DNA from: Bosea beijingensis
Lineage (GTDB): Bacteria; Pseudomonadota; Alphaproteobacteria; Rhizobiales; Beijerinckiaceae
Assembly: GCF_030758975.1 (NCBI RefSeq)
Contig: NZ_CP132359.1
Span: 5,354,702-5,418,701 of the forward strand
Direction of reading: 5' to 3'
Length of the DNA: 64,000 bases
A program made the translations under genes and the position numbers. Within the stretch, counting starts at the first letter, position 1, and each line of letters begins with the position of its first letter. Under the pieces are notes generated by a model that searched no databases, had not been told where the DNA came from, and saw nothing but the letters and a program-made list of their open reading frames with translations. This document shows positions 852 to 53,769 of the stretch, in pieces.

Positions 852-1919
852 TCATTGGCTGGTTCCATGAGGCCTGTTGCGTCGGTCGAGCCAGAGCACG
901 GCAAAGAGCACGACATTGAGGAGCGCGAGGGACAGTAGCGCGCCGAACGTCGGCACCGAGCCCATGCGATCGAGTAGCAAGGCGCCTGCGGTCGGTGCGA
1001 TTGCTTGTGCGATTAGGCTTGGCCGCGCCAGCCTTCCGATCAGCGCCGCGTAGCGCTGAGGGCCGAACTGGGCCAGCGGAAGCGTGCCTTTGGCGATGGA
1101 GAAGACCCCGTTGCCCGCGCCATAGAGGATGATTGCAAGCCCGATCGGGCCGACATCGAGCGCCATCAATCCGAGTCCGATCGTGATCAGCCCGAGTGCG
1201 GCACTCATGGTCCAGAGTGGATGATGCCGCCCTCCGCCCGCCATCTCGATAACCCGTCCGCCGACCTGCGCTGGACCGACGAGTGCGCCAAGAGCCACGG
1301 CCGCCGCGAGACCGATCCCTTGTGCCTGGAGCAGCGTCAGCAGATGAACGCCAACGATGGCACCGATCGCGCCACCGATGACGACGATGCCGGAGAGAAG
1401 GAGGAATGCGCGACGCTCCGCCGGGAGCAGGACGGATGCTTCCCCGGAAATCCCCGTCGTCGCGCTCGGCAGGTCCGGCGGAACGCGCGGCAGCATCGTA
1501 AGCACGAGCGGCAATGAGATCAGAAGCTGCATGGCTGCATAGACGAAGCAGGTCCCCCGCCAACCGAATTGCTCGACGAGATAGGCTGACAGCGGCCAGC
1601 AGACCGTGCTGGCGAAGCCGCCCCAAAGCGTCAGCACGGTGATCGCCGATCGCGCGCTTCCGCCATACAGGCGCCCGAGGGTCGAGAACGCCGCGTCATA
1701 AAGACCGGCCGCCATGCCGGCCCCCAAGACGACCCAGCCGAGGACGAATATGGGAAGGTTCGGCGACAGACCGAGGATGAGCTGCCCGCAAGCGATGACA
1801 ATGGCCGCAGCAGCCAGGACCGGCCTTCCGCCAGTCTGCCCGATGAGGCGTCCGACATAGGGCGCAACGGCGCCCGCCGTGAGCAGGCCGACCGAAAGCG
1901 CGCCTACGATCCAGGACAA
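852..1919 (-). CDS. MFS transporter missing its first transmembrane helix
   Basis: The 355 residues show MFS hallmarks: an early helix followed by GRLIGQTGGR, the loop-2 signature type, and about 11 hydrophobic segments. Family members usually have about 400 residues and start with another helix and a motif like LLAAPIAADTG. That motif is present here upstream of the TTG at the given start, but in a frame running into the 3' end of the DUF1365 gene, with no helix 1 in front. The start is therefore uncertain and translation may be coupled to DUF1365. This looks like a 5' deletion product and is probably not functional. The substrate is unknown. Confidence 0.7.
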   Translation of the reverse strand: MSWIVGALSVGLLTAGAVAPYVGRLIGQTGGRPVLAAAAIVIACGQLILGLSPNLPIFVLGWVVLGAGMAAGLYDAAFSTLGRLYGGSARSAITVLTLWGGFASTVCWPLSAYLVEQFGWRGTCFVYAAMQLLISLPLVLTMLPRVPPDLPSATTGISGEASVLLPAERRAFLLLSGIVVIGGAIGAIVGVHLLTLLQAQGIGLAAAVALGALVGPAQVGGRVIEMAGGGRHHPLWTMSAALGLITIGLGLMALDVGPIGLAIILYGAGNGVFSIAKGTLPLAQFGPQRYAALIGRLARPSLIAQAIAPTAGALLLDRMGSVPTFGALLSLALLNVVLFAVLWLDRRNRPHGTSQ

Positions 1920-2458
1920 CGGCCATCCCGTATCGGCAGCGATGGGGGCCGCGAGAAGTAGCGCATGTCGAGGTTCATGAACGGCGAGACGTGGAAGACC
2001 TTGTCTGCTTCCTGCCTCAATGCGCCTTCCGAACGATCGGCAGGCGCGACATAGCTATGGATCTCGCCGAAGGTGTTGTGCACCTCGTAGACGGTGGCGC
2101 AAAGGCTGCCGTCGCGGCGATAGCAGAAATAGGTGCTGAGCGGGTTGAAGGCGTAGCCGAGAATGCGGGGCATGGTCAGCAGGCGGATCGGGCCGCCGTC
2201 ATGCGCGATTCCGGTTTTCGCCAAGGTTTCTTCGATCTGGGCGCGTAGTGGCCTGCCGCTGCGATCCCCATAATCCGTGTCGCGAAAGGCGTAGAGATTG
2301 AAGCGGTTGCGCGAGAAAAATCTGAGCTTCGCCGAAATCCGATCGATCTCGTCGATATCGAGCAGCATCCAGAACACGCGATAGGCCAATGCATGCGGCC
2401 TGGGCCGGAACCGATGGTGCCTGACACGGCCGACATAGAGAGCGGATTGCAAGGTCAT
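1904..2458 (-). CDS. DUF1365 protein, C-terminally truncated (UfaO-like candidate)
   Basis: The N-terminal part is a clear DUF1365 protein (ALYVGRVRHHR, FNPLSTYFCYR, EVHNTFGE, KVFHVSPFMNLDMRY). At 184 residues it is about 70 short of the usual 250 or more: after NLDMRY the sequence turns into unrelated residues because the downstream MFS gene has been fused in. It overlaps the FAD oxidoreductase stop by 4 bp, so the two are one operon. In Rhodobacter a DUF1365 protein next to an FAD oxidoreductase takes part in furan fatty acid synthesis under RpoE control (recalled, gene assignment not verified). Loss of the C-terminus probably weakens or ends its activity. Confidence 0.8.
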   Translation of the reverse strand: MTLQSALYVGRVRHHRFRPRPHALAYRVFWMLLDIDEIDRISAKLRFFSRNRFNLYAFRDTDYGDRSGRPLRAQIEETLAKTGIAHDGGPIRLLTMPRILGYAFNPLSTYFCYRRDGSLCATVYEVHNTFGEIHSYVAPADRSEGALRQEADKVFHVSPFMNLDMRYFSRPPSLPIRDGRCPGS

Positions 2459-3813
2459 GCCGCCTGCTCCAGCCGGGGCAGGATCGGAATGCGACCGGAT
2501 TCGTTGGGGAGCCTCCAGGGCCGGCGGACGCCGCCGAGCGCCTCGGCGACGGCGAGCCCCGCCTGCAGGCCGTCCTCGTGGAAGCCCGATCCGAAATAGG
2601 CGCCGCAGAACCAGCTTCGGCGCGCGCCCTGCAAAGACCAGAGCCGTTCCTGCGCGGCGAGCGCAGCCGCATCGAACAGCGGATGCTCGTAGATTTCCTC
2701 GTGCAGGATGCTGCCTTCGCGCAGCGTATCCGGCGGGTTGAGCGTGACGAAGAAGGGCCGAGCTTCCGGCAAACCTTGCAGTCGGTTCATCCAGTAGGTG
2801 ACCGCGCAGGCTGAATCCGGCTGCGCGCGATGGCCGATATGATTCCAGCTCGCCCAGGCGCGGCGGCGCTTCGGCATCAGTGTTTCGTCGCCATGCAGCA
2901 CGGCGCGGTTGCGGCTGTAGCGGAAGGCGCCCAGCGCCTGAGATTCCGCCTGGCTGGGATCGGCGAGCATGGCGAGCGTCTGGTCGGCATGGCCCGCGAA
3001 GACGACGTGATCGAAGGCCTCCGCCCAGCCGTCACCCGCCAGGACGACATCATTTGCCCCCCGCTGAACCTGACGCACCGGCGTACCGAGCCTGACTTCC
3101 CCGGAAAAGGCTGCGCGTAGCCGCTCGACATAAACGCTGCTGCCGCCGGTCACGGTGCGCCAGATCGGCCGGTCGCTGAGTTGGAGCAATCCGTGATTGT
3201 GATGGAAGCGCAGGAAGGCGGCGGCCGGATAGGACAGGATCTCCGAGCAGGGAGCCGACCAGATCGCGGCCGCCATCGGCAGGAGATGATCGTCCCGGAA
3301 AGCGGTGCCGTAGCCTCCGGCGACGAGATAGTCGCCGAGCGAGATATCGGCAGCGTGCCCCGCCAGCACATCCCTTGATGCATTCCGGTAGAAGCGGGTG
3401 ATGTCCTGCAGCATGGCCCAGAAACGTGGGCGTACCAGATTGCTGCGCTGGGCGAACAGCCCAGCGACGCTGGTGCCGCTATATTCGAGCCGCCCACCAT
3501 CGAGCGAAACGGCGAAGGACATTTCGGTCGGCTGCGTAGCGACACGCAGATGCTCCATCAGCGCGATGAAGTTCGGATAAGTCGCCTCGTTGTAGACGAT
3601 GAAACCGGTATCGACCGCCGTCTCGCCGCCGATACCCGTCACGCGAACCGTGTTGGCGTGACCGCCAAGGCGAGAATCCGCCTCGAACAGCACCACGTCA
3701 TGGGCCTGTCCCAGCAGCCATGCCGCCGAGAAACCGGAAATGCCGGCACCGATCACGGCAATCCGCATCCCCTTGGCCTGTAAGCGTTCCATCGTCGCTG
3801 CTGCATTTGTCAT
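2455..3813 (-). CDS. FAD-dependent amine-oxidase-like oxidoreductase (UfaD-like candidate)
   Basis: A Rossmann FAD-binding start, MRIAVIGAGISGFSAAW, is followed by EADSRLGGHA and a flavin monooxygenase/amine-oxidase fold of about 450 residues (COG2907 type). These proteins sit beside DUF1365 and CFA-like genes; the Rhodobacter counterpart is reported to desaturate methylated phospholipid acyl chains on the way to furan fatty acids. The ATG at 3813 lies almost on the transcription start predicted from the ECF-type promoter, so the mRNA would be nearly leaderless; ATGs at 3792 and 3768 are alternatives. A longer upstream frame exists but overlaps the divergent promoter and is not preferred. Confidence 0.8.
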   Translation of the reverse strand: MTNAAATMERLQAKGMRIAVIGAGISGFSAAWLLGQAHDVVLFEADSRLGGHANTVRVTGIGGETAVDTGFIVYNEATYPNFIALMEHLRVATQPTEMSFAVSLDGGRLEYSGTSVAGLFAQRSNLVRPRFWAMLQDITRFYRNASRDVLAGHAADISLGDYLVAGGYGTAFRDDHLLPMAAAIWSAPCSEILSYPAAAFLRFHHNHGLLQLSDRPIWRTVTGGSSVYVERLRAAFSGEVRLGTPVRQVQRGANDVVLAGDGWAEAFDHVVFAGHADQTLAMLADPSQAESQALGAFRYSRNRAVLHGDETLMPKRRRAWASWNHIGHRAQPDSACAVTYWMNRLQGLPEARPFFVTLNPPDTLREGSILHEEIYEHPLFDAAALAAQERLWSLQGARRSWFCGAYFGSGFHEDGLQAGLAVAEALGGVRRPWRLPNESGRIPILPRLEQAA

Positions 3814-3819
3814 GATGGG

Positions 3820-3847
3820 TATACGCGGCCAAGGCCGGACTGGATTT
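3820..3847 (-). promoter_or_regulatory. ECF-type promoter for the FAD oxidoreductase operon
   Basis: On the minus strand AAATCC (-35) and CGTATA (-10) are separated by exactly 16 bp. This matches the spacing and -10 of the sigma factor's own promoter in this window. The first two bases of the -35 differ (AA for TG). Confidence 0.55.
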
Positions 3848-3879
3848 GCCGCTGCGTCAGCAAAAGCGCGCCGGCCGAG

Positions 3880-3907
3880 TGAGCCACAGCAACGCTTCGT
3901 GCGTAAA
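3880..3907 (+). promoter_or_regulatory. ECF-type promoter for membrane protein / DUF2147 operon
   Basis: TGAGCC-N16-CGTAAA lies 35 bp upstream of the membrane protein start and is divergent from the FAD oxidoreductase promoter. One -35 mismatch relative to TGATCC. Confidence 0.55.
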
Positions 3908-3941
3908 CGAAGACAGGCCGGGACTTTCCGCGAGGGCGACG

Positions 3942-4541
3942 ATGCCGATGAGTCGAATGAAGCGGGTCGCTGCGGCGATCGGCGCCTTCGCGGCGCATCC
4001 CGATCCACGGGCCGCGATCGCCAATACCGTCGCGCTGGTCATCGTCTCGAACCAGCCCTTCTACCCGCTCTATCTTTATTGGGCGGTCTCGCCCGTCGTC
4101 ACGCCGTCCTATGTCACCTTCCTGTCGACGCCCTTCTTCGCGGCGGTGCCGGCCCTCATGCGGCGCAGCGCCGTGCTCGGGCGATCGCTGCTTCTTGTCG
4201 CCGGCATCGGCAATACCTTGCTCTGCCGGGCCGCCTTTGGCCCCGGCTCAGGGGTCGAGGTCTTCCTGTTTCCTTGCCTCATGCTGGCGCTGATGCTGTT
4301 TCGCCGCTCGGAACGCGCCTTTGCGTTCGCCTTCACCGCGCTCGCCTTCGCCGCGTACTTGCTGCCGGCAGCGTGTCTCGGCGCGCCGATACATCGCTAC
4401 GCGATCGACGAATATGCAGCCCTGCAGCGCTTGAACTTCCTCAGCGCCGCATCCCTGACGGCTCTGATCGCATGGCTCTTCGCCGGGCGACTCGACACAA
4501 TTTCGCACGCCGATGAAACCAACGATGTCCGCGGAGCGTAG
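3942..4541 (+). CDS. Integral membrane protein of unknown function
   Basis: About 200 residues with roughly six hydrophobic segments (for example AIANTVALVIVSNQPFYPLY, LGRSLLLVAGIGNTLL, ALMLFRRSERAFAFAFTALA) and a short polar tail. It resembles stand-alone versions of the membrane sensor part of some cyclases, but no catalytic domain follows, so no function is given. The ATG at 3942 has an upstream GAGGGCGA stretch and suits the promoter at 3880; an ATG at 3948 is also possible. The DUF2147 gene follows after 30 bp, suggesting one transcript. Confidence 0.7.
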   Translation: MPMSRMKRVAAAIGAFAAHPDPRAAIANTVALVIVSNQPFYPLYLYWAVSPVVTPSYVTFLSTPFFAAVPALMRRSAVLGRSLLLVAGIGNTLLCRAAFGPGSGVEVFLFPCLMLALMLFRRSERAFAFAFTALAFAAYLLPAACLGAPIHRYAIDEYAALQRLNFLSAASLTALIAWLFAGRLDTISHADETNDVRGA

Positions 4542-4571
4542 ACGAGACGCATCTGCCGAAAGGACAACGCC

Positions 4572-4940
4572 ATGAAGCGTCTTCCGCTCGCCCTCGTCCT
4601 GGCCGCCCTTTGGTTCGGAGGCGCGGCCGCTCAAGATCTCGACGGGACATGGTTGCGCGATGACGGCAATGCGCGTGTGCGGATCGCGCCCTGCGGCGAC
4701 AAGATCTGCGCCACCAATCTCTGGATCGGCGACACCAGCAAGGGCGAGGCGGCCGGCGACAAGCTCGTCATGACGCTGGCCCGCCAGCGCGACGGTACGT
4801 TTTCCGGCAACGCCTACGACCCCAAGCGCGACTGGACCTACTCGATGACGATTACCGCGACGCCGGGTGCGCTCACCACGCGCGGCTGCATCGTCGGGCG
4901 GCTGATCTGCCGCGATGTGAACTGGAAGGCCGTGGAGTGA
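4572..4940 (+). CDS. DUF2147 secreted protein
   Basis: A 122-residue protein with a Sec signal peptide (MKRLPLALVLAALWFGGAAA, cleavage probably before QDLDG) and a complete DUF2147 domain: DGTWLRDDGNARVRI, CGDKICATN, NAYDPKRDWTYS and a conserved Cys pair near the end (GCIVGRLICRD). DUF2147 is a periplasmic lipocalin-like family of unknown biochemical role. AAAGGA upstream supports the start. Co-transcription with the preceding membrane protein would place it under the same ECF-type promoter. Confidence 0.85.
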   Translation: MKRLPLALVLAALWFGGAAAQDLDGTWLRDDGNARVRIAPCGDKICATNLWIGDTSKGEAAGDKLVMTLARQRDGTFSGNAYDPKRDWTYSMTITATPGALTTRGCIVGRLICRDVNWKAVE

Positions 4941-4961
4941 TGGCCTCCGATCTCGTCCCGG

Positions 4962-4989
4962 TGATCCGGAGCGGTTCCGCCCGCGTATC
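4962..4989 (+). promoter_or_regulatory. Autoregulatory ECF promoter of the sigma-chrR operon
   Basis: TGATCC-N16-CGTATC directly precedes the sigma factor gene. TGATCC and CGTA are the core elements of promoters used by RpoE/ChrR-type (ECF11) sigma factors as recalled, so the operon is probably self-activated. Confidence 0.7.
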
Positions 4990-5028
4990 TCGTATATGGT
5001 TCCCGCACTCGCCCTGACCGTGGATGGC

Positions 5029-5616
5029 ATGCGCAACGCGGGATTTGTCGCGCAAGGAGGTCGGTTCATCGTCTTGTTCGACGCCAACAGTCTGATTGCC
5101 GCCATCGCGCGCTCGGGTGATCGGGCGGCCTTTGCTGCGCTGTTCAACCATTTCGCGCCGCGCGTGAAGGGATTGCTGATGCGTGGGGGCGCCCCGGCGG
5201 AGCTGGCCGAGGAAGTCGCGCAGGAAACGCTCCTGGCCGTCTGGCGGAAGGCCGCCCTGTTCGATCCGGCGAAGGCCAGCGCCTCGACCTGGATCGCAAC
5301 GATCGCGCGCAACCTGCGCATCGACATTGCCCGACGCGAGACCCGGTCGCGGCTGTCGCAAGTTTACGAGATCTTGGATGAAGAAGCCCCCGAACAACCC
5401 GATGCAATGCTCTCCGGCGCCGAACGCGATGCGCGCGTGCGAGCCGCGATGACCCAGCTTTCACCCGACCAGTACCGCGTGGTCGAACTCGCCTTCATCG
5501 AAGGTCTCAGCCATCAGCATGTCGCCGATCAGCTCGCCATTCCCTTGGGCACGGTGAAATCCCGCCTGCGCCTGGCCTTGTCGCATCTGCGCGGCCGGCT
5601 GGAGGATCTGCGATGA
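5029..5616 (+). CDS. rpoE: ECF sigma factor, RpoE/ChrR type
   Basis: An ECF sigma factor with region 2 (AFAALFNHFAPRVK through FDPAKASASTWIATIARN, LRIDIARRE) and region 4 (LSPDQYRVVELAFIEGLSHQ, IPLGTVKSRLRLALSHLRGR). The ATGA overlap with a ChrR-family gene places it in the group that answers singlet oxygen and photo-oxidative stress in Rhodobacter and Caulobacter. The start is uncertain: an ATG at 4996 would sit on the predicted transcription start, the ATG at 5029 is chosen, and a TTG at 5074 follows an AAGGAGG with a 13-bp gap. Likely targets are the similar promoters around it. Confidence 0.9.
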   Translation: MRNAGFVAQGGRFIVLFDANSLIAAIARSGDRAAFAALFNHFAPRVKGLLMRGGAPAELAEEVAQETLLAVWRKAALFDPAKASASTWIATIARNLRIDIARRETRSRLSQVYEILDEEAPEQPDAMLSGAERDARVRAAMTQLSPDQYRVVELAFIEGLSHQHVADQLAIPLGTVKSRLRLALSHLRGRLEDLR

Positions 5617-6236
5617 GCATCGTGCATCGCCCATCCGACGAGACGCTGGCCGCCTTCGCAGCGGGTCAGCTCGACGAAGGTCTGGCGGTCGTCGTCGCCT
5701 GCCATGTCGAGGCGGATCAGGAGAGCCGGCGACGCCTGCGCGAGCTCGAGGCCGTCCAAGGCGCATTGCTGGATACGGTCGAGCCCGTCGCAATGGCTTC
5801 CGGCCCAACTGATGCAGCCACAGCAGCGCCAGCCGAGCCGTCATCGGCGACTGCCCCGATGTCCGAGGCAGGGATGCCGCAGGTGCTGCGCCCCTATGGC
5901 CTCGGTCCTTGGCGCCCGATTGGCATCCGCATCGCCATGCGACGCGTCGAGGTTCCCGGGGCAGATGCGCGCGTCTTCATGCTGCGGGCCGGCCCCGGCA
6001 TCGCCTTGCCGCACCACAAGCATACGGGTTTCGAATGGACGACGATCCTCGCCGGCGCCTACGAGCATGAATACGGGCGCTATACGGCCGGGGATTTCGA
6101 CGAGGCGGATGCCGAGCATGATCACACGCCGCGCGTCGACCCGGTCGAGGGCTGCACCTGCATCGTCGCGATGACGGGCAGCGTGCAGTTGCAGGGATGG
6201 CTCGGCCGACTGCTGCAACCGCTGGTGCGGTTTTGA
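5613..6236 (+). CDS. chrR: ChrR-family anti-sigma factor lacking the CxxC zinc ligands
   Basis: The 207 residues have ChrR architecture: an N-terminal anti-sigma helix domain (SDETLAAFAAGQL), an Ala/Pro-rich linker, and a C-terminal cupin with metal ligands in HHKHTGFE and a later His near EHDHTP. Rhodobacter ChrR binds zinc in the anti-sigma domain through two His and two Cys. Here His5 and His31 are present, but the Cys positions read Asp35 and Ser38 (HVEADQES). The only nearby Cys is Cys30. Either zinc is not used or the site is altered. The start overlaps the sigma stop by 4 bp. Confidence 0.85.
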   Translation: MSIVHRPSDETLAAFAAGQLDEGLAVVVACHVEADQESRRRLRELEAVQGALLDTVEPVAMASGPTDAATAAPAEPSSATAPMSEAGMPQVLRPYGLGPWRPIGIRIAMRRVEVPGADARVFMLRAGPGIALPHHKHTGFEWTTILAGAYEHEYGRYTAGDFDEADAEHDHTPRVDPVEGCTCIVAMTGSVQLQGWLGRLLQPLVRF

Positions 6237-7033
6237 CGATCGCGTCCTTCGCCGCGGCTGTTGTCTTCGTGGCCTTGGCCATGTCTGCCTTCATGGCCCT
6301 TGCGACGGCTGTCGAGCGCCGAACAGGCAATTCCGGCTGGATCGACGTGGTCTGGACTTTCGGACTGGGCCTGACAGGTATCGTCGGCGCGTTGCTGCCT
6401 TTCGGGGAGGGGCCGATGCCGCGACGCCTGTTCGTCGCGACGCTCGCTTTGGCATGGGCCTTGCGGCTCGGGCTGCATATCGCGCGACGGACAGCCGGCA
6501 TCACCGAAGATCCTCGCTATGCGAAGCTGAAGCGCGACTGGGGTAGCGATGCCCCCCGGCAGCTCGCCCGCCTGCTGCAGATGCAGGCGCTTGTCAGCAT
6601 TCCCCTGGGATTGGGAATCGTCCTCGCTGCACATAGCCCCGCGCCATCGCTGGGCTGGCGGGATTTCGCTGGCTTGGCCCTGTTCGGCGCCGGCCTTGCA
6701 GGGGGAGCCATCTCTGACGGGCAATTACGGGCATTTGCGCGCTCGGGAGCGGGCGGCGTCTGCGACCATGGCCTGTGGCGCTGGTCGCGGCATCCCAACT
6801 ACTTCTTCGAGTGCCTGCTCTGGTGCTCCTATGCGCTGATCGCACCAGCGGCTGACTATCCCTGGGGCTGGCTCGCCGTGCTGGCGCCGGCCTGCATCAC
6901 GCTCCTGCTCACCCGCATCTCCGGCATACCGCCCCTTGAAGAGCACATGCTCGCCAAGCACGGCGAGGCCTATCGCGCATACCAGCATCGAACCAGCGCC
7001 CTGATCCCGCTGCCGCCGAAAGGAGCGACGTGA
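6233..7033 (+). CDS. DUF1295 membrane protein (steroid reductase-like fold)
   Basis: A polytopic membrane protein with the DUF1295 signature near the C-terminus: SDGQLRAFARSG, GLWRWSRHPNYFFECLLW, and a tail of the type LEEHMLAKHGEAYRAYQ. The family resembles isoprenylcysteine methyltransferases and 5-alpha-reductases and often lies next to CFA-like methyltransferases. A TTG that overlaps the chrR stop (TTGA) is taken as the start because it gives translational coupling; an ATG at 6197 inside chrR has poor ribosome-binding spacing. It is the third gene of the sigma operon, so it is expected to be induced with it, probably in lipid modification. Confidence 0.8.
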   Translation: MTIASFAAAVVFVALAMSAFMALATAVERRTGNSGWIDVVWTFGLGLTGIVGALLPFGEGPMPRRLFVATLALAWALRLGLHIARRTAGITEDPRYAKLKRDWGSDAPRQLARLLQMQALVSIPLGLGIVLAAHSPAPSLGWRDFAGLALFGAGLAGGAISDGQLRAFARSGAGGVCDHGLWRWSRHPNYFFECLLWCSYALIAPAADYPWGWLAVLAPACITLLLTRISGIPPLEEHMLAKHGEAYRAYQHRTSALIPLPPKGAT

Positions 7034-8055
7034 TGACGATCATGCAGAGGCTCTCGACCTGGGGTGAAGGCCTCCCTGTTCCCGATGCCGTCAGCCGCAT
7101 GGTGATTGCGTCACTGGTCGGACGCACCGCGCGTTCGCTCGCGGCTCAGTCGGCGGATGCCGCAGCCTTCGCCCGTGACATGGCGGATTTTCCGATCGCG
7201 GTTCACACCGATGCCGCCAACGCCCAGCACTACGAGGTGCCGGCCGCCTTCTTCGACCAGGTGCTCGGCGCACGGCGCAAATATTCCTGCTGCTACTATG
7301 CCGATCCCGGCGACACGCTGGCAGCCGCCGAGGAGAAAGCGCTCGAACTGACCGCAGAGCATGCCGATCTTGCGGACGGGCAGGACATCCTCGAGCTCGG
7401 CTGCGGCTGGGGCTCGCTGTCGCTATGGATGGCTGAGCGCTATCCGCGAGCCCGGATCGTCTCAGTCTCCAATTCGGCCTCGCAGCGCGCCTATATCGAA
7501 GAGCGGGCGCAGCGCCGCCATCTCGGAAATCTTCGCGTCGTCACTGCCGACATGAACGCGTTTGGTACGGAGGAACGTTTCGACCGTGTCGTCTCCGTCG
7601 AAATGTTCGAGCACATGGCGAACTGGCGCGAACTCCTCGGGCGCGTTCGCGGCTGGCTGAAGCCGGACGGCCGGCTCTTCATCCATGTCTTCGCCCACCG
7701 GCAAGGCTGCTACCGCTTCGATACTGCGGACACAGGCGACTGGATCGCGCAGCATTTCTTCACCGGCGGACTAATGCCGAGCGCGACGCTTGCGCACCAG
7801 TTTCCCGATCTCTTCACGGTGGAGGCCGAGTGGCGCTGGAGCGGCGAGCACTACCGCGCCACAGCCGAGGACTGGCTGGCGAATTTCGATCGCAATCTCG
7901 GGACGATCAATCCGATCCTGCGTGAGACCTATGGCGCGGAAGCGCCACTCTGGCGCCGGCGCTGGCGGCTCTTCTTTCTCGCGACCAGCGGACTGTTCGG
8001 CCATGCCGTTGGCGATGCCTGGGGCGTCCATCACTATCGGTTGCGGGCAGCCTGA
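7033..8055 (+). CDS. SAM-dependent CFA-synthase-family lipid methyltransferase
   Basis: A 340-residue cyclopropane-fatty-acid-synthase family enzyme: HYEVPAAFFDQVLG near residue 70, then YSCCYYADPGDTL, the SAM site ILELGCGWGSLSLWMAE, and the family segments SVEMFEHM and FIHVFAH. Such enzymes transfer a methyl group from SAM to the double bond of phospholipid acyl chains. In Rhodobacter the RpoE-controlled homologue makes methylated unsaturated chains that precede furan fatty acids. AAGGAG is spaced 7 bp from the ATG at 7033; a GTG at 7030 is possible. Its stop ends the sigma operon; the next gene is convergent. Confidence 0.9.
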   Translation: MTIMQRLSTWGEGLPVPDAVSRMVIASLVGRTARSLAAQSADAAAFARDMADFPIAVHTDAANAQHYEVPAAFFDQVLGARRKYSCCYYADPGDTLAAAEEKALELTAEHADLADGQDILELGCGWGSLSLWMAERYPRARIVSVSNSASQRAYIEERAQRRHLGNLRVVTADMNAFGTEERFDRVVSVEMFEHMANWRELLGRVRGWLKPDGRLFIHVFAHRQGCYRFDTADTGDWIAQHFFTGGLMPSATLAHQFPDLFTVEAEWRWSGEHYRATAEDWLANFDRNLGTINPILRETYGAEAPLWRRRWRLFFLATSGLFGHAVGDAWGVHHYRLRAA

Positions 8056-8075
8056 CGGATTGGCTGGGCCGGGGA

Positions 8076-8489
8076 TTAGACCCAGCCCCAGCCGACAAGG
8101 CGCCGGACCACGATAAAGGCGACCCATGCGCACAGGCCGACGACGACCGTGCCATAGACAAGGTCGACGAGCGTGATCGTCAGCGTCCAGGGCCGCAGCG
8201 TGGCATAGTTGGTGAGGTCGTAGGTCGCGTAGGCGAGCAGGCCGATGAGCGCGCCATTGAGCAATGCGGTACTCGCGCTACCGTCACGCAGCGCCGGCAT
8301 CAGCGCGAAATAGACGACCCCGAGCGGAAAACCGAAATAGAACAGCGCCGCCGGCCAGTAGCGCACCTGCTCGACGATCAGGTCGCCGAGCACCGGCCGA
8401 TAGAGCCTGGCCGTCATCGTGCTCAGCCAGATGGCGTCGCAAATGCCGAATGCGATGAGGAAAGCGATGTAACCGGCAACGAAGCGCAT
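8076..8489 (-). CDS. DUF2177 membrane protein
   Basis: A 137-residue protein with four hydrophobic segments and DUF2177 motifs: AFGICDAIWLSTM, LYRPVLGD, YFGFPLGVVYFAL, AYATYDLTNYATLRPW, LVDLVYGTVV. The function of the family is unknown; members recur in ECF sigma/ChrR regulons. It has its own promoter of the shared ECF type on the minus strand and lies tail to tail with the methyltransferase gene. Confidence 0.85.
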   Translation of the reverse strand: MRFVAGYIAFLIAFGICDAIWLSTMTARLYRPVLGDLIVEQVRYWPAALFYFGFPLGVVYFALMPALRDGSASTALLNGALIGLLAYATYDLTNYATLRPWTLTITLVDLVYGTVVVGLCAWVAFIVVRRLVGWGWV

Positions 8490-8513
8490 GGCGATCTCCC
8501 TGATCCTGCGAGA

Positions 8514-8541
8514 GATACGCCGCGCGGGCTGACATGGTTCA
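8514..8541 (-). promoter_or_regulatory. ECF-type promoter for the DUF2177 gene
   Basis: TGAACC-N16-CGTATC on the minus strand, with one -35 difference from the sigma operon promoter and an identical -10. The predicted RNA start is about 18 bp before the ATG. Confidence 0.6.
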
Positions 8542-8570
8542 GTTCCGCTCGCGATCCTGTCTCGTCACGG

Positions 8571-8598
8571 AAATCCGTTCCCGCGGGCGGAGCGTATA
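8571..8598 (+). promoter_or_regulatory. ECF-type promoter for the lipoprotein hydrolase gene
   Basis: AAATCC-N16-CGTATA, the same sequence pair as at the FAD oxidoreductase promoter, 32 bp upstream of the hydrolase ATG. Confidence 0.55.
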
Positions 8599-8629
8599 GG
8601 AGACGATACCTCCTCGCCCCCAGGTGACC

Positions 8630-9529
8630 ATGACGCTCCGGATTGCCCGACGCACGATCCTGCCGCTGCTCGCCGGGCTTGCCTTGCCTGCCTGCGCAGC
8701 CTTGCGCCCCGGCGCCTTGACCAAAGGCGCGCGCGATGTGGCCTACGGCCTGCATCCCCGGCAGCGAATGGATATCTACGTGCCTTCCGACTGTGGCAGC
8801 GCGCCGAAGCCGGTGGTTCTCTTCATCTATGGCGGGTCCTGGGCCAATGGCGCCAAGGAAACCTATTCCTTCGTCGGGGACGCGCTTGCTGCTCGCGGCT
8901 TTGTCACGGTGATCGCGGATTATCGCCTGGTCCCGGAGGTCCGTTTCCCGGTCTTCATCGAAGACGGAGCGCTGGCGCTGCGCTTCGTGCGAGACAACAT
9001 CGCCCGCTTCGGCGGCTCCCCGGGAGCCATCCACCTGATAGGGCATTCGGCTGGCGCCTACAACGCGATGATGCTGACGCTGGACAGGCGTTATCTCGCC
9101 GCCGTCGGAATGCATGCCGGCGAGATCCGCTCCACCGTCGGCCTTTCCGGCCCTTACGACTTTCTGCCCTTCGACATCGACGTCACGAAGGAAACGTTCG
9201 GAAACGCGCGCGACCCCGCCCGGACGCAACCGATCAACTTTGTGCGTCGCGACGCTCCGCCGATCTTTCTGGCGACGGGCTCGGACGACACAACGGTCCT
9301 TCCCCGCAATAGCGAGCACCTTGCGCGGGCGCTCAAGAAGGCCGGCGCCGCATCGGTCTCGCTGAAGATCTATCAAGGGCTCGGCCATGCCAGCACGGCC
9401 ACAGCGCTGTCCCGGATTCTGCAATGGCAAGCCCCCGTGCTCGCCGACGTCGTCACGTTTCTCCGAAAGAGCGCAACATCGGTCTCCTGCCGGATTGAGC
9501 CACACTCAAGCTTTGAGAAGCTAGCTTAG
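8630..9529 (+). CDS. Alpha/beta hydrolase, predicted lipoprotein esterase
   Basis: The N-terminus RIARRTILPLLAGLA followed by LPAC fits a lipobox, so the mature protein is probably lipid-anchored; the RR pair also resembles a Tat start. The hydrolase core has the oxyanion segment FIYGGSW, the nucleophile elbow GHSAG and a late Asp/His pair (GSDDT, GLGHAS), as in carboxylesterases of the BD-FAE or acetyl-xylan-esterase type. A GTG at 8624 is an alternative start. The stop overlaps the convergent htpG stop by 9 bp. The shared ECF promoter suggests a role in the same lipid/photo-oxidative stress response; the substrate is unknown. Confidence 0.8.
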   Translation: MTLRIARRTILPLLAGLALPACAALRPGALTKGARDVAYGLHPRQRMDIYVPSDCGSAPKPVVLFIYGGSWANGAKETYSFVGDALAARGFVTVIADYRLVPEVRFPVFIEDGALALRFVRDNIARFGGSPGAIHLIGHSAGAYNAMMLTLDRRYLAAVGMHAGEIRSTVGLSGPYDFLPFDIDVTKETFGNARDPARTQPINFVRRDAPPIFLATGSDDTTVLPRNSEHLARALKKAGAASVSLKIYQGLGHASTATALSRILQWQAPVLADVVTFLRKSATSVSCRIEPHSSFEKLA

Positions 9530-11416
9530 CCCTCCCCTATCGCCGAAGCTTCGCGTCACCAGCCGGTTGAGCCTTTCAGCGAATGCGTTCGCGTTTGTCG
9601 GGCGATCGCCGTCCAGGACGCGCGCGGTATCCAGGAGCAGATGGGCGACGTCGCTACGCAACGCATCATCTTCGACAGACGCGAGGGCTGAGACCATCGC
9701 ATGGCGCGGGTTGACCTCGAGGATCGGCTTGGCCGCGCTGTCGACCCGGCCGGCGGCGCTGAGCAAGCGTTCGAACTGGCGATCCGGCCCCTTGTCCGAT
9801 GCAACTAGGCAGACCGCGCTCTCGGTCAATCGATCGGAGGTTCGGACGTCAGCGACCTCGTCCGCCAAGATCTCCTTCATCGACGCGAGCAGGGCACCGA
9901 TTGTCTCATCCGTTTCAGCGGAAGAAGGCGTTGCGCCGTCGAGTAGCGGGATGAGACCGAGATCGGCCGCACCTTGGGTCACGGATTTGAACGCATTGCC
10001 TTCGAAATCCGGTGCTGCCGAGGCCCAGAAGCTGTCGATCGGATCCGACAGCAGCAGCACCTCGATGCCTCGCGCCCGAAAACCTTCGAGCTGCGGGGAG
10101 TTGGCGATCCGGGAGGCGTCGTCGCCGGCGATGTAGTAGATCGCGGTCTGGTTGTCCTTGAGCGCGCCGACATAGTCCTTGAGGCTGCGCCACCCTTCGC
10201 CGGAGGCCGTGGTCCGGAAGCGAGCGAGGCCGAGCAGTTGCTCCCGGCGCGCGAAATCCTCGTACAGTCCTTCCTTGATGACGACGCCGAAATTGTCCCA
10301 GATCAGGCGGAATGTATCCGGTTCCTGTTCGGCCAGTTTCGCGAGATCGGCGAGGACACGGCTGGTGACACCCTTCTTGATCGCCCCGAGCATCGGGCTG
10401 TCCTGGATCATCTCGCGAGAGACGTTGAGCGGCAGGTCGGCGGTGTCGACGATGCCGCGCACGAAGCGCAGGTAGCGCGGAAGGAGCTCGGCTTCGTCCG
10501 TGATGAAGACGCGCTTCACGTAGAGCTTGATCCGCCCCTTGCGGTCGGCGTCGAAGAGATCGAACGGACGCGCGCCCGGGACGAAGGCGAGCGCGGTATA
10601 TTCGTGCAGGCCTTCGGCGCGAAAATGGATCGTGGCCGCCGGCTCGTCATATTGTCCCGCAACGCTGCGGTAGAAATCAGCATATTCGTCCTTCGTGATC
10701 TCGCTTTTCGGCCTGGTCCAGAGCGCGGCTCCGTCGGAGAGGGCGACCGCATCGGCGCCCGGCTCCGTGATCAGCGAGATCGGGACCGGTACATGGCCGG
10801 ACTGTTCCGTGACGATGCGCTCCAGCGTCCAGCGTTCGGCATAGGACTTGGCCTCCTCCATCAGGTGAAGCGTCACGCGCGTCCCGCGGGACGGAGCCGC
10901 GTCCAGCGCCGCAGGCGCCACGGTGAACTCGCCCTTGCCGTCCGAAGACCAGATCCAAGCTTCGGCGCTGCCGGCACGGCGGCTGAAAACCTCGACCTTC
11001 TCGGCCACCATGAAGGCGGAATAAAAGCCGACGCCGAACTGGCCGATGAGCTGCGCGCCGTCCTTGCCATCAGCGGTTGCTACCCGCTCCATGAAGCTGC
11101 GCGTGCCGGAGCGGGCGATCGTGCCGAGAGCTTCGATCATCTCGTCATGGCTCATACCGATGCCGTTGTCGGCAATGGTCAGCCTGCCGGCCTCCGGATC
11201 GGCCGAGATGGTGATCGTGAGCTTCGGGTCATCCCCCAGAAGCGCGGGGGTGCCGATCGCGTCGTAGCGCAGCTTCTCGCAGGCATCAGCTGCGTTCGAT
11301 ATCAGCTCGCGCAGGAAAACGTCCCGGTCGGAATAGACCGAATGCACCATCATGTGGAGCAGGCGGGAGACGTCGGCTTCGAAGCTGCGATGCTCGGCTG
11401 TGGCGGTCGTTGTCAT
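9521..11416 (-). CDS. htpG: HtpG, bacterial Hsp90 chaperone
   Basis: The full-length 631-residue Hsp90: ATP-binding GHKL motifs FLRELISNAADACEKLRY, TIADNGIGM, LIGQFGVGFYSAFMVA, the middle-domain KRVFITDEAELLPRYLRF and VSREMIQ, and a C-terminal dimerisation domain. The ATG giving MTTTATAEHRSFEADVSRL is the natural start; a longer frame upstream has no homology. It ends the chaperone cluster read leftward from groES. Confidence 0.97.
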   Translation of the reverse strand: MTTTATAEHRSFEADVSRLLHMMVHSVYSDRDVFLRELISNAADACEKLRYDAIGTPALLGDDPKLTITISADPEAGRLTIADNGIGMSHDEMIEALGTIARSGTRSFMERVATADGKDGAQLIGQFGVGFYSAFMVAEKVEVFSRRAGSAEAWIWSSDGKGEFTVAPAALDAAPSRGTRVTLHLMEEAKSYAERWTLERIVTEQSGHVPVPISLITEPGADAVALSDGAALWTRPKSEITKDEYADFYRSVAGQYDEPAATIHFRAEGLHEYTALAFVPGARPFDLFDADRKGRIKLYVKRVFITDEAELLPRYLRFVRGIVDTADLPLNVSREMIQDSPMLGAIKKGVTSRVLADLAKLAEQEPDTFRLIWDNFGVVIKEGLYEDFARREQLLGLARFRTTASGEGWRSLKDYVGALKDNQTAIYYIAGDDASRIANSPQLEGFRARGIEVLLLSDPIDSFWASAAPDFEGNAFKSVTQGAADLGLIPLLDGATPSSAETDETIGALLASMKEILADEVADVRTSDRLTESAVCLVASDKGPDRQFERLLSAAGRVDSAAKPILEVNPRHAMVSALASVEDDALRSDVAHLLLDTARVLDGDRPTNANAFAERLNRLVTRSFGDRGGLS

Positions 11417-11528
11417 TCGGATTTCTCGAATAGATTGGCGGCGGGGAGACGCTGGCAGAGAGCGATATCGCGCGGGCCCGCGGCGAGCCAGCCTGTTTGC
11501 TGACGGCCGGGGGTATAGAGAGCGCCGT

Positions 11529-11837
11529 TCACCCGCTCCCCGACGCTTGTCGGTTAGACAACGTCCTGACCAGAGCAAGTATGGCGTTCAGGCGCGCGGT
11601 CGCGAACTCGCCGGCGCCAGGCAACTGAGCCTCGATGTGAGCGGCGACGGTCTGCCACGTTGCCGATCCATCCCGCGTCATGACGGCTAGGAGATTATCC
11701 TTGAGCCCATACGTTGCGCTCTCAGCATTGGTGATGAGGGCCTTGAAGCGGTCGGAAGGCGAGAGGTCCTTAGGTTCTTGTGGGGCATCGGTCATGTCGG
11801 ATATCTGATGCGATTGAGGAAATGTCGGGGATTTCAT
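11529..11837 (-). CDS. Small conserved hypothetical protein between groEL and htpG
   Basis: A 102-residue soluble acidic protein, mostly helical (DRFKALITNAESATYGLKDN, TWQTVAAHIEAQLPG, ATARLNAILALVRTLS). A GAGAGG 5 bp before the ATG supports this start; an ATG at 11795 giving MTDAPQEPKD is possible. It lies between another small gene and htpG in the same direction. I do not recognise a family, and its position suggests heat-shock co-expression. Confidence 0.6.
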   Translation of the reverse strand: MKSPTFPQSHQISDMTDAPQEPKDLSPSDRFKALITNAESATYGLKDNLLAVMTRDGSATWQTVAAHIEAQLPGAGEFATARLNAILALVRTLSNRQASGSG

Positions 11838-11849
11838 GCGGCCTCTCGC

Positions 11850-12065
11850 CTAGGCCTTCTCGCGAAACCGGTCGATCGCGCGTTGTGCGAGATCATCCTC
11901 GTCGAGCGCCAGCGGAACCAGCGAAGCCACGATATAGGCGAGGTTGTTTCGCTCCAACTCGTCCGAACCTTCCGGAAGCGCCGGCTTGAGTTTCGACCAC
12001 GCCTTTTCCAAAGCAGCTTCGGCGCGGGCCAAGTCGATGGGATCGGTCAGTGATGAAAAGGGCAT
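11850..12065 (-). CDS. Small conserved hypothetical protein downstream of groEL
   Basis: A 71-residue helical protein (MPFSSLTDPIDLARAEAALE, then a Trp-containing helix and LAYIVASLVPLALDEDDLAQ). GAGGGGAG directly upstream selects the ATG at 12065 over one at 12080. It starts about 70 bp after groEL and ends 12 bp before the next small gene, consistent with one operon. The function is unknown. Confidence 0.6.
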   Translation of the reverse strand: MPFSSLTDPIDLARAEAALEKAWSKLKPALPEGSDELERNNLAYIVASLVPLALDEDDLAQRAIDRFREKA

Positions 12066-12137
12066 GGCTCCCCTCAGCATGCCTAGAAATTTGGACGTTA
12101 GAAGTGGGCGCCGCGGAAACCGCGGCGCCCACGATGC

Positions 12138-13769
<1,632 letters not shown>

Positions 13770-13821
13770 TCACTCCTTCAGACTTGAGGTTTCAGGTTGA
13801 TGATGTGGGATGAAGGCCCCG

Positions 13822-14136
13822 TTAGGCGGCCTTCTTGAGGGCGGCCGTCGTCTCGACGACGCCCATGATGTCGGTCTCCTTCATGATCAGGAGATCCTGG
13901 CCGTCGATCTTGACCTCGGTGCCGCTCCATTTGCCGAAGAGCACGCGGTCGCCGACCTTGACGTCGGGTGGCACGAGCTTTCCGGTCTCGTCGCGCGCGC
14001 CGGCGCCGACGGCGACGACCTCGCCCTCCTGCGGCTTTTCCTTGGCGGTGTCGGGAATGATGATCCCGCCCTTGGTCTTCTCCTCGGCGTCGATGCGCTT
14101 CACGACGACGCGGTCATGCAGTGGCCGAAACTTCAT
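13822..14136 (-). CDS. groES: GroES co-chaperonin (10 kDa)
   Basis: A complete 104-residue Gro[17 protein letters not shown], the mobile loop [38 protein letters not shown] and [12 protein letters not shown]. It caps GroEL. It is the first gene of the chaperone operon, and a CIRCE-like operator lies about 140 bp upstream. Confidence 0.97.
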
Positions 14137-14275
14137 GAGTTCCTCCAGTTTCCATGTCGGTCACATGTCAAAGCGGGCCGGCCCTGTTCAGGTCTCGCGG
14201 CGAGGTTCCGCGCGCCCTGAGGCGCCGTGCCCGCGCGAAGATTTGGGTTGCCCGATTTTTGCCTTCAAGAGGTCG

Positions 14276-14302
14276 GCAGCACTTTTTTTGATCGAGTGCT
14301 AA
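14276..14302. promoter_or_regulatory. CIRCE-like HrcA operator, one arm degenerate
   Basis: On the groES strand TTAGCACTC is followed by 9 bp and AAGTGCTGC. The CIRCE consensus is TTAGCACTC-N9-GAGTGCTAA, so the first arm is perfect and the second keeps AGTGCT but has three changes. The 9-bp spacer is exact. HrcA control of groESL is likely but may be weakened. Confidence 0.7.
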
Positions 14303-14397
14303 CAGGCTGAAAAGGCAGCACAAACGCAACTTTTTATCTTGCCAGAGCGTTGAGAATCCGCTGCCATCGGCGCAGTGAAACCAGGGAGCTGAAAGGA

Positions 14398-14667
14398 ATG
14401 GCTTCGACGGACTTCGCCCGCCAGATCGCCGGCTACGGATTGACCACCGCCGGCATCCTCTACCGCCTGCCCGACCACCCTTCCATCCTCCAGGAATATG
14501 TCTGGCAGGACTACGACCTCGCTCCGCGCTTTCCCGAGCTCAACAAATTCCTCGCCTTCTGGCAGGCCAAGCTTGATGGCAGGCTGTTCCGCATCACCGT
14601 CGCCCACAAGGACCTGATCGGCCCGGCCGACCTCAGCGCGGTCAGCGGCGAGTTCCGGCTTCAGTGA
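14398..14667 (+). CDS. usg: Usg family protein
   Basis: An 89-residue protein matching the Usg family of alphaproteobacteria: DFARQIAGYGLTTAGILYRL, PDHPSILQEYVWQDYDLAPR, FPELNKFLAFWQAKLDG, GEFRLQ at the end. The family was named for its location near tryptophan genes; its biochemical role is unknown. GAAAGGA precedes the ATG. It is divergent from groES. Confidence 0.85.
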   Translation: MASTDFARQIAGYGLTTAGILYRLPDHPSILQEYVWQDYDLAPRFPELNKFLAFWQAKLDGRLFRITVAHKDLIGPADLSAVSGEFRLQ

Positions 14668-25107: not shown

Positions 25108-25464
25108 ATGGAAAATGAACAGATCATCCTCGCGCTGGCAGCCTTGGCGCAGAGCACGCGGCTCGATGTATTCCGCATTCTTGTGAGCGCCGAGCCGGAG
25201 GGATTGGCGGCAGGCGAGATCGCGCGGCGCCTCGACGTCCCCCACAACACGATGTCATCGCATCTCGGCATCCTCAGCCGGGCTGGCCTCATACGCTCAG
25301 AGAGGTCCAGCCGCTCAATCGTCTATCGAGCCGATCTCAATGCCCTAAGGTCAGTTGTCGCCTTCCTGCTCAAGGATTGCTGCGGCGGGCGACCAGAGAT
25401 CTGCGCACCGCTGATGGCCGAACTGAGCCCGTGCTGCCAACCGAAGGCAACCGCCAATGTCTGA
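25108..25464 (+). CDS. arsR: ArsR-family arsenic-responsive repressor
   Basis: A 118-residue winged-helix regulator: LAALAQSTRLDVFRIL, AGEIARRLDVPHNTMSSHLG, ILSRAGLIRSERSSRSIVYR. The C-terminal Cys cluster (KDCCGGRPEIC and ELSPCCQP) is a likely arsenite site, as in C-terminal-type ArsR proteins, rather than the ELCVCDL helix site. It represses its own operon and is released by As(III). It overlaps arsC by 8 bp, which indicates a tight operon. Confidence 0.9.
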   Translation: MENEQIILALAALAQSTRLDVFRILVSAEPEGLAAGEIARRLDVPHNTMSSHLGILSRAGLIRSERSSRSIVYRADLNALRSVVAFLLKDCCGGRPEICAPLMAELSPCCQPKATANV

Positions 25465-25894
25465 GCCGATCGACGTAATCATCTATCACAACCCAGCCTG
25501 CGGAACCTCGCGGAACACGCTCGGGCTGATCCGTAACGCTGGCGTCGAGCCGCACATCATCGAATATCTCAAGACCCCGCCCAACCGCACCTTGCTGAAG
25601 CAGCTTCTCGATCGCGCCGGCATGAGCGTCCGGGAAATCCTCCGCGAGAAGGGCGCGCCTTTCGCCGAACTCGGCCTCGGCGATCCGAGCATGAGCGACG
25701 AATCTCTCTTCGACGCCATCGAGGCGCACCCGATCCTGATGAACCGACCGCTAGTGGTCTCTCCGAAAGGCGTGAAGCTCTGCCGCCCATCCGAAGCCGT
25801 TCTGTCGCTCCTGCCGCCGCAACGCGGCGAGTTTCGCAAGGAGGACGGCGAACTCGTCGTCGACGCGGCCGGTCGGCCCGCAGCTCTCGCCTGA
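25457..25894 (+). CDS. arsC: Arsenate reductase, glutaredoxin-coupled
   Basis: A 145-residue ArsC of the ArsC/Spx fold: IIYHNPACGTSRNTLGLI has the catalytic Cys, and the supporting Arg residues are in the usual places (for example NRPLVV). It reduces arsenate to arsenite with glutathione and glutaredoxin. It lies between the repressor and the efflux pump, 7 bp from the latter. Confidence 0.93.
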   Translation: MSEPIDVIIYHNPACGTSRNTLGLIRNAGVEPHIIEYLKTPPNRTLLKQLLDRAGMSVREILREKGAPFAELGLGDPSMSDESLFDAIEAHPILMNRPLVVSPKGVKLCRPSEAVLSLLPPQRGEFRKEDGELVVDAAGRPAALA

Positions 25895-25901
25895 GGTCAG
25901 C

Positions 25902-52621: not shown

Positions 52622-52972
52622 ATGGCCCGACACCGCACCCACAGCATCGAGTTCAAGCGCCAGGTGGCGCAGGATTACCTGGCTGGCGAGACGCTCCACA
52701 GCCTCGCCCGTCGACATGACCTGTCGCGCAACCTGATCCGCATCTGGATTCAGAAGTTCGAGGGTGGCGCCTTCGACGACGAGGCCGTCGCCGTCGATAC
52801 GATCGAAGCCTATGAGGCGCGCATCGCCGCGCTGGAGCGGCTTGTCGGCAGGCAGGCCCTGGAGATCGAGTTTCTAAAGGGGGCTCTGAAGCACGGACCG
52901 CGGCCGAGAAGCGCGACTACATCCGTCGTCACCGGCCCCGCGGCATCTCTGTCGCAGAAGGATGCCGGCTGA
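52622..52972 (+). CDS. IS3-family OrfA (HTH protein)
   Basis: A 116-residue OrfA: helix-turn-helix [40 protein letters not shown], then a leucine-zipper-like helix ([20 protein letters not shown]). The useful part ends around FLKGALK; the frame then runs in a shadow of orfB. An AAAGGGGG run at 52876-52883 is the likely -1 frameshift site that makes the OrfAB transposase. Confidence 0.9.
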
Positions 52973-53769
52973 TGGGGATCTCGCGCTCGACCTACTACGA
53001 CAAGCCGGCCGTGAGCATCGACGACACCGCACTCGTCGAGACGATGGCGGCGATCTCCGAGAGTTTCGAGGCTTATGGCTATCGCCGGATGCAGGCAGCG
53101 CTGCGGCATCGTGGCCTGATCATCAATCACAAGAAGATCAGGCGATTGATGCGCGAGCACGGCCTCCAGCCTCGACGGCGTCGGCGCTACATCGCCACCA
53201 CCGATGGCGATCACGGTTTGCCGATCTTCCCGAACCTGGCGAGAGATATGGTCCCGGACGGGCCGAACCAGCTCTGGGTGGCCGACATCACCTACGTCGC
53301 GATCACCATCGGCTTCGTCTATGTCGCTGTCATCCTCGATGCCTGGTCGCGCAAGGTCGTCGGCTACGCCATCGGCCGCTCGATCGACGTCAGGCTGACG
53401 CTGGCCGCCCTGCGCACAGCCATTGAAAAGCGGGGACCGCCCCCCGGCTGTATCCACCACACGGACCGCGGCTCGCAATACGCGGCCGGGCGCTACCGGC
53501 ACGCCCTCGCCGAACATGGTCTCGTCGGATCGATGGGGCGCCGCGGCAATCCATACGATAACGCCAAGGCCGAGAGCTTCATGAAAACGCTTAAGGTCGA
53601 GGCCGTCTATCCTATGGCCTACGAGACTTTCGACGATGTCGCAGCCGATCTTCCGCGCTTCATCGATCAGGTCTACAACACAAGCCGACTGCATTCCGCG
53701 CTCGGCTATCTCAGCCCGCAGCAGTTCGAGGATCAACACGCCCGGCTCCCGGTCAAAACCGCAGCCTGA
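52972..53769 (+). CDS. IS3-family OrfB transposase (DDE)
   Basis: A 265-residue integrase-core protein: [23 protein letters not shown] Asp in [10 protein letters not shown], Asp in [11 protein letters not shown] and Glu in [16 protein letters not shown]. The same frame continues upstream from the ATG into [20 protein letters not shown], so the natural product is the OrfAB fusion made by -1 frameshifting; the internal ATG is only a nominal start. No stop or frameshift damages it, so the element could be active. Confidence 0.92.

Follow-up and report, generated by a model that had tools for sequence, protein, structure and literature searches.

Five conserved, probable ECF11 promoter sites around an rpoE-chrR operon of Bosea beijingensis whose ChrR lacks the zinc-site cysteines

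Genes and candidate promoters of the rpoE-chrR block

A 64,000-nucleotide stretch of the Bosea beijingensis assembly GCF_030758975.1 (contig NZ_CP132359.1, positions 5,354,702 to 5,418,701, forward strand; hereafter the window) carries a block of genes around an operon that encodes the extracytoplasmic function (ECF) sigma factor RpoE and its anti-sigma factor ChrR. Five transcription units, which together fill positions 1904-9529, are each headed by a dyad in which a hexamer is followed by exactly 16 bp and CGTA. These dyads are very probably ECF11 RpoE promoters of one local regulon directed at singlet oxygen and organic peroxides. The sites, their spacing and conservation, the gene families and the residues of ChrR can all be read directly from the DNA. 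The features of the block are as follows.

1904..2458, minus strand: truncated ufaO (DUF1365), 167 homologous residues followed by a foreign tail; PF07103 positions 1-156 of 235
2455..3813, minus strand: flavin adenine dinucleotide (FAD) oxidoreductase, ufaD-like (RSP1091 type); PF01593, gene order and names after PMC7380195
3822..3847, minus strand: candidate ECF11 promoter of ufaD-ufaO, AAATCC-N16-CGTA; pattern match and alignment of relatives
3880..3905, plus strand: candidate ECF11 promoter of the membrane protein-DUF2147 unit, TGAGCC-N16-CGTA; pattern match and alignment
3942..4541, plus strand: integral membrane protein, MASE7-like below the family cut-off (22.2 bits against 26.2)
4572..4940, plus strand: DUF2147 protein, second gene of the membrane-protein unit; PF09917, 53.2 bits
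4962..4987, plus strand: candidate ECF11 autopromoter of the sigma operon, TGATCC-N16-CGTA; pattern match and matrix rank 1 of 127,946
5074..5616, plus strand: ECF11 sigma factor RpoE, TTG start shortly after AAGGAGG; 2q1z_A, 8.5e-40
5613..6236, plus strand: ChrR anti-sigma factor without the Cys pair of the anti-sigma domain; TIGR02451, 161.3 bits, cut-off 124.5
6230..7033, plus strand: DUF1295 protein (frame as scanned); PF06966
7030..8055, plus strand: cyclopropane-synthase-like (cfa-like) methyltransferase of the sigma operon; PF02353
8076..8489, minus strand: DUF2177 membrane protein; PF09945
8516..8541, minus strand: candidate ECF11 promoter of DUF2177, TGAACC-N16-CGTA; pattern match and alignment
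8571..8596, plus strand: candidate ECF11 promoter of the lipoprotein hydrolase, AAATCC-N16-CGTA; pattern match and alignment
8624..9529, plus strand: alpha/beta hydrolase of the BD-FAE family, its N-terminus lipoprotein-like as judged by eye; PF20434, 103.3 bits

Among solved chains, the sigma factor matched Rhodobacter sphaeroides SigE best (2q1z_A, 139.8 bits; next chain 87.7 bits), and the chain closest to the window ChrR was R. sphaeroides ChrR. With the narrower ChrR model NF051881 the score was 188.4, below its cut-off of 300. Three features of ECF11 RpoE-ChrR systems, a SigE-like sigma factor, a ChrR encoded alongside it and a TGATCC-N16-CGTA autopromoter, are found here.

A preliminary description of this DNA had proposed that five dyads of identical spacing define a local sigma regulon spanning the block. 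All five proved exact, each lying before a transcription unit of its own, and the regulon covering these units is well supported by the conservation of the boxes in relatives. The distance from CGTA to the start codon is 86 nt for the sigma factor (TTG 5074), 36 nt for the membrane protein, 27 nt for the hydrolase and 26 nt for DUF2177. The description had called the start distances sensible, which holds for these four units (26-86 nt) but not for ufaD, where only 8 nt separate CGTA from ATG 3813 (3813-3825, minus strand). This short gap is kept within about one base in the aligned relatives. If ATG 3813 is the start, the ufaD mRNA is likely leaderless or nearly so; alternatively, a later ATG is used.

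In the 64-kb window, WRANCC-N16-CGTA gave seven matches against 0.90 expected (100 shuffles, largest count 3). The two additional matches lie inside chrR (6072-6097, minus strand) and at 34532-34557 (minus strand). The seven other spacings tested within 13-20 gave 0-2 matches each. When the five leaders were shuffled with their dinucleotides preserved, the chance of a match was 0.0004-0.0017 per leader, and of 20,000 sets 85 had a match in one leader and none in two. These odds are biased, since the pattern searched for had been derived from these very sites and the leaders share DNA in pairs. For the first of these reasons, conservation is the stronger test. A matrix from outside the window, built from 32 distinct sigma-upstream sites of 53 other loci, ranked the five window sites 1, 3, 4, 15 and 16 of 127,946 positions; its input was gathered through a GATC/CGTA pattern, so that the hexamers are overstated.

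Conservation of the candidate promoter sites

The three intergenic stretches were aligned with those of 18 Bosea-type loci (L046-L063), the window and a second copy of the block in the same assembly being counted among the rows. The ufaD/membrane-protein alignment includes 17 of the 18 loci (L049 is cut) and the DUF2177/hydrolase alignment 16 (L054 and L063 have no hydrolase match), which gave 19, 20 and 18 rows for the ufaD/membrane-protein, sigma and DUF2177/hydrolase stretches. The ufaD box reads AAATCC-N16-CGTA in 18 of 19 rows and WRATCC in all 19, and the membrane-protein box TGASCC-N16-CGTA in 18 of 19, the exception being L061 with TGGGCC. At the sigma autopromoter, TGATCC stands at N16 in 19 of 20 rows (TGATCT in L059). 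The DUF2177 box, also at N16, is TGAACC in 15 of 18 rows and WRAWCC in every one. For the hydrolase, NRATCC was found in 16 of 18 rows and WRATCC in 11, with a spacing of N17 in L058 and ATCG in L059. The hydrolase leaders of L047 and L051 have TGATCC in the place of the window AAATCC, which speaks for the latter being a real, though weak, box.

The boxes were kept in these relatives while the spacers drifted, with mean identities to the window spacers of 46-62%. A comparison of related genomes, which the preliminary description had suggested as a check, thus showed the sites to be conserved. When eight other spacings were tried in the alignments, these boxes matched only once in total. The second block copy retains all five sites.

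The motif was also recovered without reference to the window. In an unsupervised dyad count over the sigma upstream regions of 62 further loci (L064-L125), GATC-N17-CGTA came out on top (42 of 62). In the same regions, TGATCY and CGTA were separated by N16 in 41 of 62 loci and by N12-N15 or N17-N21 in none.

Distribution of the motif in the genome and the genus

The exact forms TGANCC-N16-CGTA and AAATCC-N16-CGTA were searched for across the genome. The first gave 15 matches against 13 in the reversed control, six of the 15 lying in the two blocks. The second gave eight against one, of which four are block promoters, one lies inside chrR and three are elsewhere. Outside both blocks there were 12 matches: ten are antisense in coding-like frames, one (L006) lies in a weakly coding-like sense frame and one (L008) is promoter-like. 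A larger genome-wide regulon read through the exact motif was therefore rejected: hardly any exact match outside the two block copies is placed like a promoter. The match in L008 (1501-1526) is TGAACC-N16-CGTA, 41 nt upstream of an open reading frame resembling a metal-transport ATPase; its GMDCASC start is metal-ATPase-like.

Genomes of the same genus, 37 in number, were divided by whether they carry a close sigma homolog (E < 1e-80). TGATCC-N16-CGTA averaged 5.05 occurrences in the 20 that do and 3.8 in the 17 that do not, five of the latter having a homolog of about 50% identity. The extra occurrence of about one per sigma-bearing genome fits the autopromoter alone. The reversed control was lower (0-2 per genome), with or without the sigma gene; because the excess over it is seen regardless of that gene, it is no evidence for a regulon.

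ChrR without the zinc-site cysteines of the anti-sigma domain

In R. sphaeroides ChrR, zinc is held in the anti-sigma domain by H6, H31, C35 and C38, and the ligands of the cupin domain are H141, H143, E147 and H177 (PMC6852236). In a gapless alignment of the anti-sigma domain, the window ChrR has R6, H31, D35 and S38, so that three of the four ligands are lost, and the zinc-binding anti-sigma (ZAS) motif H/C-X24/25-H-X3-C-X2-C, as given in PMC6432622, is not found. The cupin ligands are kept (H135, H137, E141, H171) and are invariant in an alignment of 35 sequences (A1). The same holds for the close relatives L046-L072, most of them Bosea or Phreatobacter, whose sigma factors are at least 73% identical to that of the window: 26 of 27 keep the cupin ligands (the row of L070 is broken), and none has Cys at 35 or 38. 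In the second block copy, C38 is present and C35 is not.

Of the more distant ChrR rows with His31, 31 of 38 have the Cys pair, a count that leaves out six of 44 rows without His31 and of other architecture (L087, L088, L097, L102, L105, L115); nine of the 53 more distant loci had no usable ChrR row. The pair is also missing in L077, L080, L085 and L096, and one Cys is left in L081, L083 and L086. Mapped by parsimony onto a 67-row tree of the sigma factor, the state of the Cys pair needs four changes, at least three of them forced by well-supported branches, with a direction that depends on the root of the tree.

R. sphaeroides ChrR must bind zinc to inhibit its sigma factor (PMC6852236, section 10), and its cupin domain is needed for the response. 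Singlet oxygen rapidly oxidised and unfolded a peptide that models the zinc site, which the authors take to support a sensing role of the site, a role under debate (PMC6432622). Anti-sigma factors of the RseA type fold without zinc (PMC6852236, PMC7406223), and about 72% of soluble class I anti-sigma factors carry the zinc motif (PMC7406223). Since some anti-sigma factors do without this motif, the loss of zinc in ChrR is structurally plausible. RseA and RskA thus resemble the window ChrR as proposed here in that their anti-sigma fold is stable without zinc, but they are partners of other ECF sigma factors. No report of a cysteine-free ChrR was found in a literature search that covered mostly titles and abstract openings, nor one of ECF11 in Bosea among the 10 best-ranked of 53 matches. 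RseA and RskA presumably also differ from ChrR in having no cupin domain.

The anti-sigma domain of this clade would, judging from its residues, fold and bind the sigma factor without Cys2His2 zinc, and sigma release would then rest on the cupin domain. We propose, as a tentative reading that falls somewhat short of an even chance, that the Bosea/Phreatobacter ChrR is naturally zinc-free yet answers singlet oxygen through the cupin domain alone, that the Cys2His2 site is dispensable and was lost repeatedly in ECF11 systems, and that the same clade added the membrane protein, DUF2147 and the lipoprotein esterase under the same sigma factor as an envelope-repair module. The cysteine-free ChrR clade is the chief addition to the known system and is directly testable. 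A clade that keeps the locus, the promoters and the cupin ligands but not the cysteines is a natural experiment on sensing by the zinc site.

The loss of three of the four zinc ligands, together with the need for zinc in R. sphaeroides (PMC6852236), could also mean that in this clade ChrR no longer works as an anti-sigma factor and cannot hold RpoE, leaving the regulon constitutively on. This is unlikely, as chrR adjoins rpoE in all 27 close relatives, the cupin ligands are kept in all but the broken L070 row, the ratio of nonsynonymous to synonymous substitutions (dN/dS) between the two chrR copies is 0.14, and RseA-type anti-sigma factors fold zinc-free (PMC6852236, PMC7406223). Slightly less likely still is that the domain binds a metal through H31, D35 and other side chains, with sensing unchanged. 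H31 is invariant in alignment A1 and D or N is common at position 35, but the residues seen across the 27 loci (D, N or S at 35; S, T or A at 38; R, L, F or H at 6) do not make up the pattern of a kept site.

Proposed regulon, its members and known relatives

In the favoured explanation, ChrR, co-produced with RpoE, would hold the sigma factor off as in other members of the family, and photo-oxidative stress would act through the cupin domain and lead to loss of ChrR. Freed RpoE would read its own operon (rpoE-chrR-DUF1295-cfa-like), ufaD-ufaO, the membrane protein-DUF2147 unit, DUF2177 and the hydrolase gene. From their families, these genes may serve lipid remodelling and the clearing of oxidised membrane products, and the hydrolase and membrane protein would act on oxidised envelope lipids. 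The promoter set thereby names envelope genes (hydrolase, membrane protein and DUF2147) as candidate responders to lipid photo-oxidation.

The regulon reading of the preliminary description appears right and is supported in part, while the system itself is mostly known, being ECF11 RpoE-ChrR with its published promoter. R. sphaeroides SigE-ChrR (ECF11; 2Q1Z/2Z2S) resembles the block in its sigma and anti-sigma families, paired genes, H-H-E-H cupin ligands and ufaD/ufaO-type regulon genes. It differs in binding zinc through H6, H31, C35 and C38, where the window has R6, H31, D35 and S38, and in a regulon that extends to rpoHII. In Pseudomonas syringae, the consensus TGATCC-N16-CGTA was published for PSPTO_1043 together with chromatin immunoprecipitation and quantitative reverse transcription PCR, and the variants listed include aGATCC and TGAgCC (PMC5507510). 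That regulon has many loci genome-wide, whereas in the genome of the window nearly all exact matches placed like promoters belong to the block copies. Shewanella oneidensis RpoE2-ChrR has TGATCC-N16-CGTA before rpoE2, like the window, with mapped starts for rpoE2 and pgpD, but its targets differ and include glutathione peroxidase and photolyase (PMC4336711).

Searched with the sigma factor, the genome gave eight hits at E <= 0.001, so the dyads might be read mainly by another sigma factor, with the block merely a neighbour; this is improbable, because many other loci have the same dyad ahead of their ECF11 sigma genes and it equals the published ECF11 consensus (PMC5507510). That the sites are chance matches picked after the fact can practically be dismissed, even though they themselves supplied the search pattern and TGANCC-N16-CGTA barely exceeds its reversed control (15 against 13), since the boxes are conserved at each of the five leaders, eight other spacings yielded a single match between them and the shuffle controls agree.

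The ECF11 promoter reading also has to account for several points that weigh against it. Both AAATCC sites are weak on the outside matrix, below several matches taken as chance, and the -35 box of the hydrolase is loose, with the strict form in 11 of 18 rows. Neither an intact ufaO nor ufaM is present in the block copy. In none of 25 genomes of the class that hold both genes does the hydrolase lie within 50 kb of the sigma gene on one contig. This count was made with strict E limits among the matches listed: of 190 genomes, 33 besides that of the window hold a hydrolase homolog (E <= 1e-35) and 25 of these also list the sigma factor (E <= 1e-32), and in G221 both genes are near contig ends, where they may be adjacent. 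In L064 and L066, the hydrolase gene is nearby but in the opposite orientation, and no site is listed in front of it. None of the 189 other genomes of the class yielded the membrane protein.

Support for the hydrolase and the membrane protein as members comes from distant loci. The hydrolase gene stands between chrR and DUF1295 in four of them (L073, L086, L089, L096). In L089, labelled Acetobacteraceae, the order at 9713-14369 is sigma-chrR-hydrolase-DUF1295-cfa-like-membrane protein, the listed frames between sigma and DUF1295, these two included, each share 4 bases with the next, and the family assignments of the hydrolase and the membrane protein were checked. Such an operon at this distance supports membership of both. 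The membrane protein nevertheless appears nearly Bosea-restricted in what was searched, as all nine homologs with the organism named, among the 120 listed of 582, are from Bosea. Its score for PF20967 is under the cut-off (22.2 against 26.2 bits; 24.3 for the L089 relative), and many homologs among the same 120 carry PF20967 in precomputed annotation, so that the likeness to MASE7 is probably real. In 17 of the 18 Bosea-type loci (not in L063), the membrane-protein gene is followed by DUF2147, which suggests membership of the latter within Bosea only.

The preliminary description had singled out the hydrolase and DUF2147 as undescribed members of such a regulon. For the hydrolase this novelty is weakened, because the P. 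syringae regulon already lists the esterase/lipase-family gene PSPTO_4843, which has TGATCC-N16-CGTA and a 10.13-fold induction (PMC5507510). For DUF2147, no report of it as a sigma-regulon member was found in the open literature searched (in the broader search, among the 8 best-ranked of 3,360 papers), a search that did not extend to the 2008 core-regulon paper.

Furan fatty acid genes

In R. sphaeroides, furan fatty acid synthesis involves UfaD (RSP1091), UfaO (RSP1090, DUF1365) and UfaM (RSP2144) (PMC7380195), and furan fatty acids are needed for ChrR turnover (PMC6852236). Of these ECF11 core genes, the block has an intact ufaD-like gene, a truncated ufaO and no gene in the position of ufaM, and is therefore not a complete core regulon. 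The ufaO product has 266-267 aa in all 17 relatives that carry the gene, and the window copy breaks off at residue 167. Beyond ufaO, 17 of the 18 Bosea-type loci have a further CMAS gene that shares 27-30% identity with the cfa-like gene, the remaining locus being cut. By its position this methyltransferase gene would be ufaM, and the cfa-like gene at 7030-8055 a separate paralogue. An intact DUF1365 gene and pieces of a ufaM-type gene are found elsewhere in the assembly. The window copy alone is probably unable to make furan fatty acids and would lean on the other copy. At its break, the window ufaO runs into a major facilitator superfamily (MFS) transporter gene whose own beginning is likewise shortened.

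Second copy and surroundings of the block

The second block copy (L126, 6395-13003, same assembly) is in reverse orientation and 91.6% identical over 6.4 kb, and it is flanked by broken contigs joined by single Ns. The two copies are sisters on the sigma tree (100/89). Synonymous divergence (dS) between them is 0.14-0.37 and dN/dS 0.05-0.31 for eight genes, ufaD and ufaO not among them; the low dN/dS indicates that the eight genes compared look maintained. A very recent duplication was rejected on the basis of this identity and dS. A mixture of strains is possible, since the end of the assembly has the look of unplaced contigs strung together with single Ns; the contamination listed for the assembly is 1.74%. 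Of the 20 same-genus genomes with a close sigma homolog, two copies are listed in this one only.

The block homologous to the Bosea locus is one further feature:

1958..9462, no strand assigned: block homologous to the Bosea locus; 86.4% identity over 7518 columns with Bosea robiniae L047

The match between the window and the B. robiniae locus is confined to these positions. To the right, htpG-groEL-groES-usg (9521-14667) is shared with the Bosea plasmids pB32-1 and Tri-49 unnamed1 (455-459 kb; flank identity 86.6-90.6%), the match beginning at 9539-9540. No sigma or chrR gene was found in the annotated plasmid stretches around this match, for which the tables are incomplete. Compared in this way, the sequences suggest that the window belongs to a plasmid-like replicon that acquired the block from a Bosea chromosome. 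A plasmid-borne ECF11 system as such was rejected as a novelty, as a ChrR relative is present on 87 plasmid records, all below 60% identity.

Farther along the window, 25108-26954 (plus strand) holds an arsenic-type-looking cluster with an ArsR-like gene, an arsenate-reductase-like gene (by eye) and an SBF-family transporter gene. Matches to annotated plasmid genes point to IS3-type and ISL3-type transposase genes at 52622-55437 (plus strand), and the end of the window is low in G+C content (48%).

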